Assembly (NCBI GenBank): GCA_024642465.1
Contig: JAHEBA010000003.1
Coordinates: forward strand, 1 to 64,000
Direction: 5' to 3'
Origin: Alphaproteobacteria bacterium
GTDB taxonomy: Bacteria; Pseudomonadota; Alphaproteobacteria; Rhizobiales; Aestuariivirgaceae
DNA: 64,000 nucleotides
Shown: positions 38,143-41,579 of the stretch, one piece after another
How positions within the stretch are numbered: the stretch's first letter is position 1
How the letters are laid out: every line of letters starts with the position of its first letter
Translations under genes and position numbers: made by a program
Notes under the pieces: generated by a model
Databases searched by the model: none
Told to the model about the DNA's origin: nothing
What the model saw: the letters and a program-made list of their open reading frames with translations, nothing else

Positions 38143-38157
38143 GTTCTCTTTTTGTTT
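38143..38157. promoter_or_regulatory. Probable LexA (SOS) box upstream of nrdJ
   Basis: GTTC (38143-38146), seven bases, GTTT (38154-38157): one mismatch from the alphaproteobacterial LexA site GTTC-N7-GTTC. It lies 26 bases upstream of the nrdJ ATG in a 50-base gap. The seven-base spacer is T-rich like that of the perfect box at 40550. Confidence 0.6.
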
Positions 38158-38183: not shown

Positions 38184-40514
38184 ATGACCGACAGCGCACC
38201 AGACCCCATCGCCCATGAAATCTGGGACATGAAGTACCGCTTCAAGTCCGCAGACGGCACGGCCATCGACCAGACCGTTGACGACACCTGGACCCGGGTG
38301 GCCAAGGCGCTTGCCCAGCCTGAAGCCGGCCACAATCGCGGGCGCTGGGAACGCACCTTCCACGAAGTCCTGTCGGGCTACAAGTTCCTTCCCGCCGGGC
38401 GCATCATTGCCGGCGCCGGAACAGGCCGCAAGGTGACGCTGTTCAACTGCTTCGTCATGGGCACGATTGAAGATGACATGAGCGCCATCTTCGACGGCCT
38501 GCGCGAGGCGGCGCTGACCATGCAGCAGGGCGGCGGCATCGGCCACGACTTCTCCACGCTGAGGCCCAGGGGCGCGCCGGTGAAGGGTGTCGGCGCGGAT
38601 GCATCGGGCCCACTGAGCTTCATGGACGTCTGGGACGCCATGTGCCGCACCATCATGTCGGCAGGCTCGCGCCGTGGCGCCATGATGGCGACCATGCGCT
38701 GCGACCACCCGGACATCGAGGACTTCATCACGGCCAAGCAGGATGCGCACCGGCTGCGCATGTTCAACCTGTCTGTGCTGGTCACTGACGCGTTCATGAG
38801 CGCGGTGAAGGACGATGCTGACTGGGACCTGGTGTTTGACGGCAAGGTTTACCGGACGGTGCGTGCCCGCGACCTGTGGGACCGCATCATGCGCGCCACC
38901 TACGACTATGCAGAACCCGGCGTGATCTTCATCGACCGCATCAACGCGCAGAACAATCTCGGCTACTGCGAAACCATCCACGCGACCAACCCCTGCGGCG
39001 AGCAACCACTGCCGCCCTACGGCGCCTGCCTGCTGGGATCGATCAACCTGGCGGCGCTGGTCTGGTATCCGTTCGAAGAGCGTGCCCATGTGTGCAAGAA
39101 GGCACTGGCGGACATAACCACGACGGCAGTCCGCATGCTCGACAACGTGGTCGACATCTCCAACTATCCGCTGGAGGCACAGGCGCATGAGGCCCGCTCC
39201 AAGCGCCGGATCGGCCTCGGGGTCACCGGACTTGCCGACGCGTTGGCCATGTGCGGATTGCGGTATGGCTCGCCAGAGGCGGCCAGGGCTGCGAAAGACT
39301 GGATGCACCAGATCGAGCGCGCGGCCTATCTTGCCAGCACGTCGCTTGCCACCGAGAAAGGGGCCTTCCCGCTGTTCGACCGCGATGCCTATCTGGCGTC
39401 CGGCCATGTCAGAGAACTCGATGCTGATGTGCGCAAGGCCATTGCCGACCATGGCATCCGCAACGCGCTGCTGACCTCGATCGCGCCCACCGGCACAATT
39501 TCCCTGTTTGCCGGCAATGTTTCCTCGGGTGTCGAGCCGGTGTTCTCGCTCAAGTATAACCGCAAGGTCCTGCAGCCGGACGGCAGCCACACCGTCGAGC
39601 CGGTGGAGGACTTCGCCCTGCGGCTGTTCCGTCAGAAGCACGGCGAGGACGCTGCGCTGCCGGATGCGCTCGTGACAACCGCTGACCTCAGCCCTCATGA
39701 CCACATCATCATGCAGGCCGCCTTGCAGGCCCATGTGGACAGCTCCATCTCCAAGACCGTGAACGTGCCGGAGGACATCAGCTTCGAGGCCTTCCGCGAC
39801 GTGTACATGCAGGCCTTCGACCTTGGCCTGAAGGGCTGCACGACCTACCGACCCAACCCGGTGACCGGGTCGGTGCTGTCGGATGCATCTTCCACCAGCG
39901 AGTCGGCCGAGACGCAGCCTGACTTGCCGCTGGCCGCTCCCGCAGCGCCTGGCGAAGCATCCAGCGTGGTCTACATGCGCCAGCCATTGGGCCGCGATCC
40001 GGTGCTGCCCGGCTTTACCTACAAGCTGAAGTGGGGCGACTCGGACCACGCCATCTACATCACCATCAACGACATCGTCGAGGATGGCAGGCGGCGTCCG
40101 TTCGAGATCTTCATCAACTCCAAGAACATGGAGCACTACGCCTGGACCGTGGCGCTGACCCGGATGATCTCGGCGGTGTTCCGCCGCGGCGGCGACGTGT
40201 CGTTCGTGGTCGAGGAACTGAAGGCCGTGTTCGACCCGCGCGGCGGCCACTGGATGGAAGGCCGCTACGTGCCGTCCTTGCTGGCTGCCATTGGCGGCGT
40301 CATCGAGAAGCACATGCTGGCCACGGGGTTCCTCAAGCGAGCCGAAAGCATCGCCGGCGACGAGGAGGCAAACGGCCACGAAAGAGCATGGCGCATGGCG
40401 GTCGGCGGGCAGCATGCGCCCGGTGGCCAATGCCCGAAATGCGCCGAGGCCTCGCTCGTGTTCCAGGAAGGTTGTTCCACCTGCCTGTCCTGCGGCTATT
40501 CGAAATGCAGCTGA
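38184..40514 (+). CDS. nrdJ: Adenosylcobalamin-dependent ribonucleotide reductase (class II)
   Basis: 776 residues. Reduces ribonucleotides to deoxyribonucleotides using coenzyme B12 as radical source, independent of oxygen. Catalytic layout is complete: Cys89 in LFNCFVMG and Cys282 form the redox pair; NPCGE (Asn269, thiyl Cys271, Glu273) is the active-site loop. The 11-residue spacing from Cys271 to Cys282 fits the family as I recall it. The TSCPD domain (about 610-700) follows, then a C-terminal zinc-ribbon/cysteine tail with CPKC, CSTC, SCGYSKC. This is the shorter TIGR02504-type form, not the ~1200-residue form. A LexA-like box sits upstream; the cofactor could come from pduO at 20969. 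Confidence 0.95.
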   Translation: MTDSAPDPIAHEIWDMKYRFKSADGTAIDQTVDDTWTRVAKALAQPEAGHNRGRWERTFHEVLSGYKFLPAGRIIAGAGTGRKVTLFNCFVMGTIEDDMSAIFDGLREAALTMQQGGGIGHDFSTLRPRGAPVKGVGADASGPLSFMDVWDAMCRTIMSAGSRRGAMMATMRCDHPDIEDFITAKQDAHRLRMFNLSVLVTDAFMSAVKDDADWDLVFDGKVYRTVRARDLWDRIMRATYDYAEPGVIFIDRINAQNNLGYCETIHATNPCGEQPLPPYGACLLGSINLAALVWYPFEERAHVCKKALADITTTAVRMLDNVVDISNYPLEAQAHEARSKRRIGLGVTGLADALAMCGLRYGSPEAARAAKDWMHQIERAAYLASTSLATEKGAFPLFDRDAYLASGHVRELDADVRKAIADHGIRNALLTSIAPTGTISLFAGNVSSGVEPVFSLKYNRKVLQPDGSHTVEPVEDFALRLFRQKHGEDAALPDALVTTADLSPHDHIIMQAALQAHVDSSISKTVNVPEDISFEAFRDVYMQAFDLGLKGCTTYRPNPVTGSVLSDASSTSESAETQPDLPLAAPAAPGEASSVVYMRQPLGRDPVLPGFTYKLKWGDSDHAIYITINDIVEDGRRRPFEIFINSKNMEHYAWTVALTRMISAVFRRGGDVSFVVEELKAVFDPRGGHWMEGRYVPSLLAAIGGVIEKHMLATGFLKRAESIAGDEEANGHERAWRMAVGGQHAPGGQCPKCAEASLVFQEGCSTCLSCGYSKCS

Positions 40515-40530: not shown

Positions 40531-40564
40531 TTGACGATTCCAGATATTTGTTCTACTTTTGTTC
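40531..40564 (+). promoter_or_regulatory. Sigma-70 promoter with a perfect LexA box over the -10
   Basis: TTGACG (40531-40536), 17-base spacer, TACTTT (40554-40559). The LexA site GTTC (40550-40553), N7, GTTC (40561-40564) is an exact GTTC-N7-GTTC match, and its seven-base spacer contains the -10. LexA bound here would block RNA polymerase. The downstream ATG is 25 bases away with AGGAG in between. Confidence 0.8.
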
Positions 40565-40589
40565 TGTAGCTGGAACAGGAGTGAACGCC

Positions 40590-41039
40590 ATGTCATCAAG
40601 CCCTGCTTTCGACCTCGCCAACGAGTTCGGCGACCGGTTCTGGTTCTGGACGGGCGCTTCCGGCAAACGCTACATCCACTCCGTCTATCATCCCGAGGAC
40701 TGCCCGCCGCTGCCGGGCGCGATCTTCATCGAGGTCTGCCGCATGGCGGACGGGTCCCGAAGGGCCCTGAGCGCCGGCCGGTTCTCGCCGCTGTGGGATC
40801 TTGCCGCCAGTTCGGCCAACCGGCTCGACGCGGCCTGCCGCGAGGTACACGTTCACCTGTTGGCCGAGGGCGAAGCGGCGACGGCCCGGGTACTGGACGA
40901 CCTGCGCGCCGGGCTTGGTCTCGACGTGGCGCCCGCCTCGCCAAGACCAGCCGCAAAGGCAGCACCTGTCCCGTCACGGCGCGATGGCGGTTTCGCAGAA
41001 CAGGTCAGCCTGCCGCTATTCGCCGGCCTTGCGGCCTGA
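40590..41039 (+). CDS. SOS-controlled protein with predicted sliding-clamp-binding tail, unknown family
   Basis: 149 residues. ATG at 40590 has AGGAG eight bases upstream, and a promoter with a perfect LexA box before that. Residues 1-110 look like one small folded domain (FGDRFWFWTGASGKRYIHSVY; several Trp/Tyr, two short beta-like blocks, then a helix). Residues 112-133 are an Ala/Pro-rich linker, and the tail holds QVSLPLF at 138-144. That resembles the DnaN-binding motif near the N-terminus of Hda (QLSLPLY) and the QLPLF-type motifs of repair proteins. No enzyme motif is seen. It could also be a homologue of an unnamed ORF found after nrdJ in relatives. It converges with chaC, overlapping by 24 bases. 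Confidence 0.75.
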   Translation: MSSSPAFDLANEFGDRFWFWTGASGKRYIHSVYHPEDCPPLPGAIFIEVCRMADGSRRALSAGRFSPLWDLAASSANRLDAACREVHVHLLAEGEAATARVLDDLRAGLGLDVAPASPRPAAKAAPVPSRRDGGFAEQVSLPLFAGLAA

Positions 41040-41579
41040 GCCGGAACGCGCTGCCTGCGCCAGCGCGAGCACTTTTTCCAGGTGATGATCGCTCATCCCC
41101 TGTTCGCGGATGTGATCAAGCGTCGAGGCAATGTACTCGATGCAAGGGCCAACCTTGCCTTGGCCCTGCAGCACGAACGGCAAGAGCTCCTCTGCCGAGC
41201 GCTTCCCGGCATACTGGCTGTGGGTCTGGTCCACCACATAGACCAGCGCATGCACCCGCTCCGGGCCTCCGTGGCGCTTAACCAGCATCGGCCGCCACTT
41301 CTCCTTGTAGACCATCGTCACCTGTTCGCGTTCACGAAGATAGGCAATGGTATCCTCACGCCGGTCCGACGAGACCCGGTAGCCGATGCCCCGGCAGCGC
41401 CCGCCCCGGTCCAGACCCAGAACCATGCCGGGCTTGTCAGGCGTTCCGCGGTGAACATGGCTGTAAATGCACAGCCGCCGGTGCACCCCGTGCATGACCG
41501 CCTCGCAACGCTCCTCGAACTCGAAACCCGGCCGCCACATCAGCGAACCGTATCCGAATATCCAAAGCGACTCACTCAT
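41016..41579 (-). CDS. chaC: Gamma-glutamylcyclotransferase, ChaC family
   Basis: 187 residues. ChaC enzymes cleave glutathione to 5-oxoproline and Cys-Gly. The substrate loop FGYGSLMWRPGF is at 8-19, and the REREQVTMVYKE region holds the presumed catalytic Glu (RExVTxVY in homologues). HSQYAGKRSAEEL and CIEYIASTLDHIREQGM are family blocks. It is cytoplasmic, convergent with the LexA-controlled ORF. A periplasmic-type gamma-glutamyltransferase at 53.6 kb is a separate glutathione-degrading route. Confidence 0.92.
   Translation of the reverse strand: MSESLWIFGYGSLMWRPGFEFEERCEAVMHGVHRRLCIYSHVHRGTPDKPGMVLGLDRGGRCRGIGYRVSSDRREDTIAYLREREQVTMVYKEKWRPMLVKRHGGPERVHALVYVVDQTHSQYAGKRSAEELLPFVLQGQGKVGPCIEYIASTLDHIREQGMSDHHLEKVLALAQAARSGSGRKAGE

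Follow-up and report, generated by a model that had tools for sequence, protein, structure and literature searches.

A probable SOS-controlled protein of the GIY-YIG fold with a putative sliding-clamp-binding tail in an alphaproteobacterial order

The gene described here encodes a protein of 149 amino acids and lies between nrdJ and chaC in a window of 64,000 nucleotides, the window being the whole stretch of DNA that was analyzed (Table 1). The earlier note had pointed out the open reading frame, a promoter whose −10 element lies inside a perfect GTTC-N7-GTTC, and a disordered Ala/Pro linker followed by QVSLPLF, and each of these was borne out; in the AF2 model of the protein, pLDDT block means were 49 to 60 from residue 111 onward. 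The gene is covered by no Pfam, NCBIfam, PHROGs, or PADLOC model. There was no Pfam, PHROGs, or PADLOC match to the protein at E values up to 1, and the only NCBIfam match, to EncD, was far below the cut-off (E of 0.073). A sequence search of the PDB returned nothing useful, and a phage search returned no match at E values up to 0.01. No open-licence paper found describes the gene, as judged by title or abstract opening, which is weak evidence of novelty, and no description of it was found in the open-licence literature on the alphaproteobacterial LexA regulon.

Table 1. Features of the gene and its surroundings, in window coordinates
Feature	Coordinates	Strand	Basis
CDS, 149 aa, probably SOS-controlled GIY-YIG-fold protein	40590..41039	+	ATG at 40590, stop at 41039
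−35-like hexamer TTGACG, 17 bp ahead of the −10	40531..40536	+	resemblance to consensus only
Putative LexA (SOS) box GTTCTACTTTTGTTC, overlapping the −10 TACTTT (40554-40559)	40550..40564	+	perfect GTTC-N7-GTTC
AGGAG, ribosome-binding-site-like	40577..40581	+	sequence
Globular core, residues 17-110: N-terminal hairpin (W-x-G-x-SG-x-x-Y), then probable degenerate GIY-YIG fold (GAIFI...LSAG...E-x-H-x-H...DDL)	40638..40919	+	AF2 model, VIA-align ranking, Bradyrhizobium relative
Ala/Pro-rich linker, residues 111-137	40920..41000	+	low pLDDT
Putative clamp-binding motif QVSLPLF, residues 138-144	41001..41021	+	recurrence in homologues; consensus published in PMC11139829 (part of source)
C-terminal Leu-Ala-Ala, resembling an ssrA-type ClpXP degron	41028..41036	+	over-representation of [LVM]AA ends
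nrdJ, next gene upstream, encoding a short class II (B12-dependent) ribonucleotide reductase that has a TSCPD domain	38184..40514	+	
chaC (gamma-glutamylcyclotransferase family), convergent downstream neighbor, 24-nt overlap	41016..41579	-	Pfam; syntenic marker

Homologues were found in 41 of 60 genomes of relatives and, by profile search, in 218 of 397 genomes of the order. A sample of the class yielded matches in 6 of 385 genomes, one being the genome of the window itself and another belonging to the same order. A second scan, of named genomes, returned 36 loci, including loci from Anderseniella, Aestuariivirga, Taklimakanibacter, Methyloligella, and Rhodomicrobium; many were labelled Hyphomicrobiales or Alphaproteobacteria and one Verrucomicrobia. 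The homologue set comprised 141 distinct proteins from 156 loci, some of which represent the same gene twice (30 loci from the search of the 60 relatives, 35 from the order and class searches, and 11 and 80 others). It covers part of the 218 genomes of the order, with the weaker matches under-sampled, and the tree built from it (134 rows, 98 columns) has mostly weak forks.

The box upstream of the gene, GTTCTACTTTTGTTC, is the sole perfect GTTC-N7-GTTC of the window, where 1.5 would be expected by chance in 64 kb. This pattern is given as the alphaproteobacterial LexA motif in the accessible part of PMC8565304, and as the LexA motif in Caulobacter in that of PMC12700426. Across the whole genome there are 120 perfect boxes (57 forward, 63 reverse) versus 115 matches to a reversed control pattern. 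We therefore rejected the perfect box alone as proof of SOS control; with boxes at chance frequency, evolutionary support is needed, and it is conservation that carries the claim. A perfect box lies within 200 nt of the domain in 75 of the 141 homologues and no more than 60 nt before the start codon in 74; these 74, with L084 (box 99 nt away) left out, are referred to as box-bearing. The density of perfect boxes in the homologue loci was 0.16 per kb and strand, the boxes of the family itself being counted in, and a search of 150 genomes of the order for the exact sequence GTTCTATATTTGTTC gave 16 sites, 9 of them just upstream of this gene. On the tree, box presence required 5 changes, against 44 when labels were shuffled over the 134 rows, and 52 box-less rows formed one branch (SH-aLRT, 98%). 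The gene thus shares with the alphaproteobacterial LexA regulon a perfect box over the promoter that is kept in many families. The LexA control proposed in the earlier note is strongly supported by this conservation across families, and we consider SOS control of the window gene very highly probable; its induction by DNA damage would be expected.

The spacing of the box differs among homologues. It begins 16 to 17 nt ahead of the start codon in 56 of the 74 box-bearing homologues (for example, L022, L128, and L143), and the distance is 39 to 40 nt in the window's genus. The shorter spacing suggests a leaderless SOS transcript, because the −10 would lie inside a box that is itself only 16 to 17 nt from the start. 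Elsewhere in the window's genome, the lexA region carries a perfect box together with one site of one mismatch, two one-mismatch boxes are found at recA, and boxes also precede genes that we take to be radA and comM. An AT-rich perfect box with the sequence GTTCTATATTTGTTC (L188:2521-2535) stands in the same genome ahead of a small open reading frame whose product is presumably a glyoxalase-family protein.

The protein had been described in the earlier note as belonging to no recognizable family. This was wrong: it is, with good confidence, a divergent member of the GIY-YIG fold with a degenerate active site. A tblastn search against plasmids returned one relative, annotated as a GIY-YIG nuclease, from Bradyrhizobium barranii (E of 1e-8). 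It shares with the window family an N-terminal W-x-W-x-G-x-SG-x-x-Y module, which is followed by ANYVMV...AIYVGQSENLRDR...TELHIHML...IETD, and it retains an intact GIY-YIG motif (ANYVMV...AIYVGQ...RDR...IETD). Against the 141 homologous proteins, this relative gave phmmer E values down to 1.9e-23. The Bradyrhizobium protein is itself below the Pfam cut-offs for GIY-YIG domains (PF01541/PF20815; E of 0.012 and 0.047), and neither the window protein nor any of the 50 homologues scanned rose above them.

AF2 modelled the core of the window protein with confidence except at residues 71 to 80 (mean pLDDT, 59). VIA-align ranked 2lwf, the plant Grx N-terminal domain, first (Z of 6.7, rmsd of 3.7, 90 residues aligned) and the UvrC structure 1yd6 second (Z of 5.4, rmsd of 2.5, 71 residues aligned), followed by R.Eco29KI (3mx4; Z of 3.6, rmsd of 15.5), which was tied with the unrelated AvrPphB (1ukf; Z of 3.6). 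With an AF2 model of the box-less homologue L227, the first ten rows were all GIY-YIG structures, namely, the Grx domain (Z of 7.2), six UvrC structures (5.0 to 5.9), T4 EndoII (4.9), which we take to be a GIY-YIG protein, and two R.Eco29KI structures (4.8). The plant Grx N-terminal domain is a GIY-YIG domain according to the accessible part of PMC5890173. The models thus point, at moderate Z scores of 5 to 7, to the b-b-a-b-a core of this fold, of which the first helix is modelled in L227 and missing from the model of the window protein. Foldseek searches against the PDB and viral models gave no match at E values up to 0.001, the E values being above 0.1, and hhalign with a GIY-YIG alignment placed GAIFI...LSAG against VYIL...LYVG without significance (E of 0.04 to 0.11, probability of about 1%). 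Taking the predicted models together with the bridging Bradyrhizobium relative, we hold descent of the globular part from GIY-YIG proteins to be highly likely. The predicted order of strands and helices is that of the superfamily, as represented by the N-terminal domains of UvrC and plant GrxS16, T4 EndoII, and R.Eco29KI. Unlike GIY-YIG nucleases, the window family has an additional N-terminal hairpin (W-x-G-x-SG-x-x-Y) and an E-x-H-x-H strand, and it has kept neither the YIG tyrosine nor the catalytic glutamate, and only rarely the arginine.

The degree of this loss varies with the branch. In 22 GIY-YIG domains taken from genomes of the same order, both tyrosines, the glycine, the arginine, and the glutamate are invariant. 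In a 40-member branch that includes the window protein (SH-aLRT of 86, not starred), with members from families f1, to which the window belongs, f5, f36, and f38, the YIG tyrosine and the glutamate were found in none of the 40 sequences and an arginine 7 to 9 residues past the glycine in 2; the position of the GIY tyrosine is occupied by tyrosine in 31 and by phenylalanine in 9, the window protein among the latter. The other 34 box-bearing homologues have tryptophan at the YIG position in 29 cases and tyrosine in none, with the glutamate in 12 and the arginine in 10, and the 60 box-less homologues retain the YIG tyrosine in 2, the glutamate in 38, and the arginine in 7. The tyrosine of YIG, the arginine, and the glutamate that mark a catalytic GIY-YIG nuclease are thus not found together in the window protein. 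Since the tyrosine, the glutamate, and mostly the arginine are gone from the alignment, classical catalysis has likely been lost, especially in the branch of the window protein. A different set of residues is nearly invariant instead, comprising W20, G22, S24, G25, Y28, E85, H87, H89, and D104. The last four occur in 71, 71, 74, and 74 of the 74 box-bearing and in 57, 59, 52, and 59 of the 60 box-less homologues, respectively.

The C-terminal tail of the window protein resembles known clamp-binding peptides. The published consensus takes the forms Q-phi-x-[LM]-[FL] and Q-phi-x-[LM]-x-[FL], and the peptide of Hda reads PAQLSLPLYL (PMC11139829, accessible part). The likeness to Hda drawn in the earlier note stands, in that QVSLPLF fits the six-residue form and lies in a disordered end, as in DnaN-binding proteins. 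Unlike Hda, the window protein has no AAA+ or polymerase domain, and its motif is C-terminal, that of Hda being N-terminal. A further difference from Hda and other DnaN binders is that many homologues of the window protein have no motif, and binding by the window protein itself is predicted from sequence.

Of 51 box-bearing tails with a length of 10 residues or more, 20 carried a relaxed form of the pattern, against a mean of 1.2 and a maximum of 6 in 2,000 shuffles, and none of 33 box-less tails did so; the tails were cut wrongly in a few rows of this count (for example, L056, L090, L103, and L119). The strict published pattern was present in 10 of 54 box-bearing tails (shuffles, mean of 0.5 and maximum of 5 in 5,000) and in none of 52 box-less tails, 5 box-bearing and 2 box-less rows being without an anchor. 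All 20 motifs fall in the 40-member branch, where the strict form occurs in 10 members; none was found in the 34 box-bearing homologues outside that branch or in the 60 box-less ones. Among the ends of unrelated open reading frames, the relaxed form occurred in 22 of 597 (about 4%) and the strict form in 6 of 597, the frames being of at least 150 amino acids and unchecked as to gene status. The motif is found in 9 of the 15 genera of the branch, and when one random member was drawn per genus, a mean of 7.6 carried it, against a mean of 0.54 and a maximum of 4 in 5,000 shuffles.

The motif drifts in sequence and place among homologues. The forms observed are QVSLPL, QATLPL, QPVLPL, QPTLPL, QPSLPL, QLSLL, QLELL, QLDLL, QSELF, QAEMF, QPGLF, QPSLF, QGSLF, QTELAF, QIDLF, QVDLF, and QLSLW, and the tail of L064 contains HIDLF. 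QLDLL is the form in Aestuariivirga litoralis. Half of these forms break the strict consensus, either in their second residue or, in QLSLW, at the last position, where a tryptophan weakens clamp binding (PMC11139829, accessible part). In the window's genus, LPLF is kept in all six homologues while its codons change synonymously. The relaxed motif is absent from the other 20 members of the branch, including the Taklimakanibacter group, family f38, and 7 of 12 members of genus g5. The conservation of box and tail together that the earlier note looked for therefore holds in half of the 40-member branch, but the tail is missing elsewhere among box-bearing homologues, for example in families f20, f21, and f50. 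The box appears to be the trait of wider occurrence, and the clamp motif to belong to one lineage. Because there are SOS-controlled branches without such a tail, clamp binding cannot be the core function of the family; in the lineage of the window, we consider DnaN binding by the predicted motif likely. Three homologues of family f7 (L123, L033, and L134) share a different tail end, LPAVFF(A/T)N(L/I)SF.

The motif lies near the 3′ end of the gene, where chaC may overlap it. Such overlap occurs in 25 of 76 convergent loci, and in the window the 24 nt shared by the two 3′ ends (41016-41039) touch the last two residues of the motif. The motif could be placed relative to chaC in 18 loci. In 5 it lies wholly or partly within the overlap, namely, the window locus L001 and L022, L027, L059, and L066, the overlap covering the motif in the latter four. 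In the other 13, among them 5 of the 6 loci of the window's genus, the motif is outside; those 5 are separated from chaC by gaps of 7 to 168 nt (stop codons checked); L010, L023, L050, L063, and L065 also have gaps. The proposal that the overlapping chaC imposes the motif was thus rejected only in part, and the overlap could shape the motif in those five loci.

The protein ends in Leu-Ala-Ala. Ends of the ssrA type are degrons for ClpXP. Of the 74 box-bearing homologues, 18 have an [LVM]AA end, compared with 2 of 66 without a box and 2 of 532 unrelated open reading frames, and as the homologues are related, this is not a count of independent events. The end of the window protein is a possible ClpXP degron, which would fit a protein that vanishes after repair.

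The gene is often found between nrdJ and chaC. Among 140 loci with enough flank, 65 had nrdJ upstream on the same strand. The clamp-tail branch contributed 32 of its 40 loci to this total (at distances of 43 to 336 nt), the remaining box-bearing homologues 6 of 34, and the box-less ones 27 of 66. With flanks of about 1 kb, the gene stood next to nrdJ in 2 of 18 loci of family f31, 0 of 12 of f20, 0 of 8 of f33, and 0 of 5 of f50. A chaC-like match was found beside the gene, in short flanks, in at least 77 of 141 loci from 19 families, and 76 of these were convergent. The recurrence of nrdJ and chaC as neighbors across many families indicates descent in place, and a mobile family was rejected on the same ground; the locus is largely inherited where it stands. 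An exception is the Bradyrhizobium relative, which lies on a conjugative plasmid among transposases.

The earlier note had called the neighboring nrdJ SOS-type. The linkage of the gene to nrdJ is real and wide, but LexA control of nrdJ was not upheld and was rejected. In the window's genome nrdJ has a one-mismatch site, GTTCTCTTTTTGTTT, at 38143; of 19 other loci in which the start of nrdJ could be seen, none carried a perfect box in the 150 nt ahead of it and one carried a one-mismatch site. Two class II-type reductase genes are present in the window's genome, the short nrdJ described here and a longer one. Among the matches listed, a short NrdJ (at least 59% identity) accompanied the gene in 33 of 41 genomes and was also present in 8 of the 19 that lack the gene, so that the two co-occur only loosely. 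These eight are, again among the matches listed, seven genomes of genus g3 and G051, in which the order-wide profile search found a gene missed in the search of the 60 relatives. Six of the g3 genomes (G007, G016, G020, G024, G028, and G033), gene-less in the latter search, have a short NrdJ match that, among those listed, ends near residue 566 to 590, without the TSCPD end. The nrdJ of Taklimakanibacter and its relatives is interrupted in frame by an insertion after residue 271. In L210 (791-1924, + strand) the insertion is 378 amino acids long, and in it the Pfam model LAGLIDADG_3 is over its cut-off and Intein_splicing just under; by these domain matches the insertion reads as an intein. 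A similar gap in nrdJ is seen in L209 and L226 (the genomes of L210, L209, and L226 being G012, G018, and G030).

The explanation that we favor, and judge somewhat better than evenly balanced when taken as a whole chain, is an SOS-induced, clamp-tethered, probably noncatalytic GIY-YIG protein acting at damaged forks. DNA damage would free the box covering the −10 from LexA, and the protein would be made. Its GIY-YIG fold, in which most catalytic residues are missing, would then probably bind DNA with branches or flaps, or else a partner, and leave it uncut. In the lineage of the window, the QxxLxL/F peptide of the disordered C-terminal tail would dock in the pocket of DnaN and so carry the domain to forks and gaps, where it may compete with polymerases and repair proteins, or help to exchange them, during damage tolerance. 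The Leu-Ala-Ala end may allow fast removal by ClpXP afterward.

A catalytic role is conceivable if the E-x-H-x-H strand and the invariant aspartate make up an alternative active site within the GIY-YIG scaffold, making the protein an active structure-specific nuclease. The near invariance of E85, H87, H89, and D104 in box-bearing and box-less branches alike would suit this, but the Bradyrhizobium relative has the same strand (TELHIHML) and aspartate alongside an intact motif, so these residues may be structural, and with the classical residues largely gone we regard such a nuclease as distinctly doubtful. Unlikely, too, though with somewhat more to commend it, is a partner of the short B12-dependent reductase, serving in deoxynucleotide supply or sensing and acquiring SOS control and the clamp tail only later. 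The frequency of nrdJ upstream, in box-less loci as well as in the clamp-tail branch, the presence of short NrdJ in most gene-bearing genomes listed, and the NrdJ matches that stop early in six gene-less g3 genomes are in keeping with a partnership. Against it, 8 of the 41 gene-bearing genomes have no short NrdJ among the matches listed and 8 of the 19 gene-less ones do; few or none of the loci in families f20, f31, f33, and f50 have the gene beside nrdJ; and nrdJ has no conserved LexA box. As chaC is linked at least as well, the nrdJ linkage may only mark an inherited locus. A combined version, in which an SOS-induced adaptor ties the accessory reductase next door to the clamp and thereby brings deoxynucleotide synthesis to damaged forks, would use the dead GIY-YIG domain as a scaffold, one end of which carries the clamp peptide, and would have NrdJ as a partner suggested by the conserved linkage; we think it very improbable.

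Other readings turn on the tail. SocB of Caulobacter binds DnaN. It is toxic and degraded by ClpXP, according to the accessible part of PMC5422525, and the window protein is likewise small, clamp-directed by prediction, and possibly a ClpXP substrate. A brake of this type, in which the tail blocks the clamp pocket and halts replication until ClpXP clears the protein, would account for a clamp-like peptide and a Leu-Ala-Ala end in one short protein. However, the likeness to SocB is one of description only, box-bearing branches without the clamp motif exist, and, unlike SocB, the window gene is probably LexA-controlled, with no toxin-antitoxin pair or antitoxin-like gene noticed beside it; such a brake seems improbable. 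We give similarly little credence to a tail that arose by chance, or as a by-product of the overlapping chaC, in a disordered segment rich in Ala, Pro, and Leu. The pattern is short and occurs at some unrelated ends, the members of the branch are related, and five loci do have the motif in the overlap, but its presence in half of the branch and in most genera, the synonymous codon changes under LPLF, and the 13 of 18 motif loci outside the overlap argue against this.

If the clamp-tethered, noncatalytic reading is right, the damage response of a large alphaproteobacterial order would gain one more protein under LexA control, and the gene would be a case in which the fold of a GIY-YIG nuclease, its active site lost, has found a new use at the replication clamp. 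The linkage of the gene to a ribonucleotide reductase, in turn, offers a testable connection between the SOS response, deoxynucleotide supply, and the clamp.
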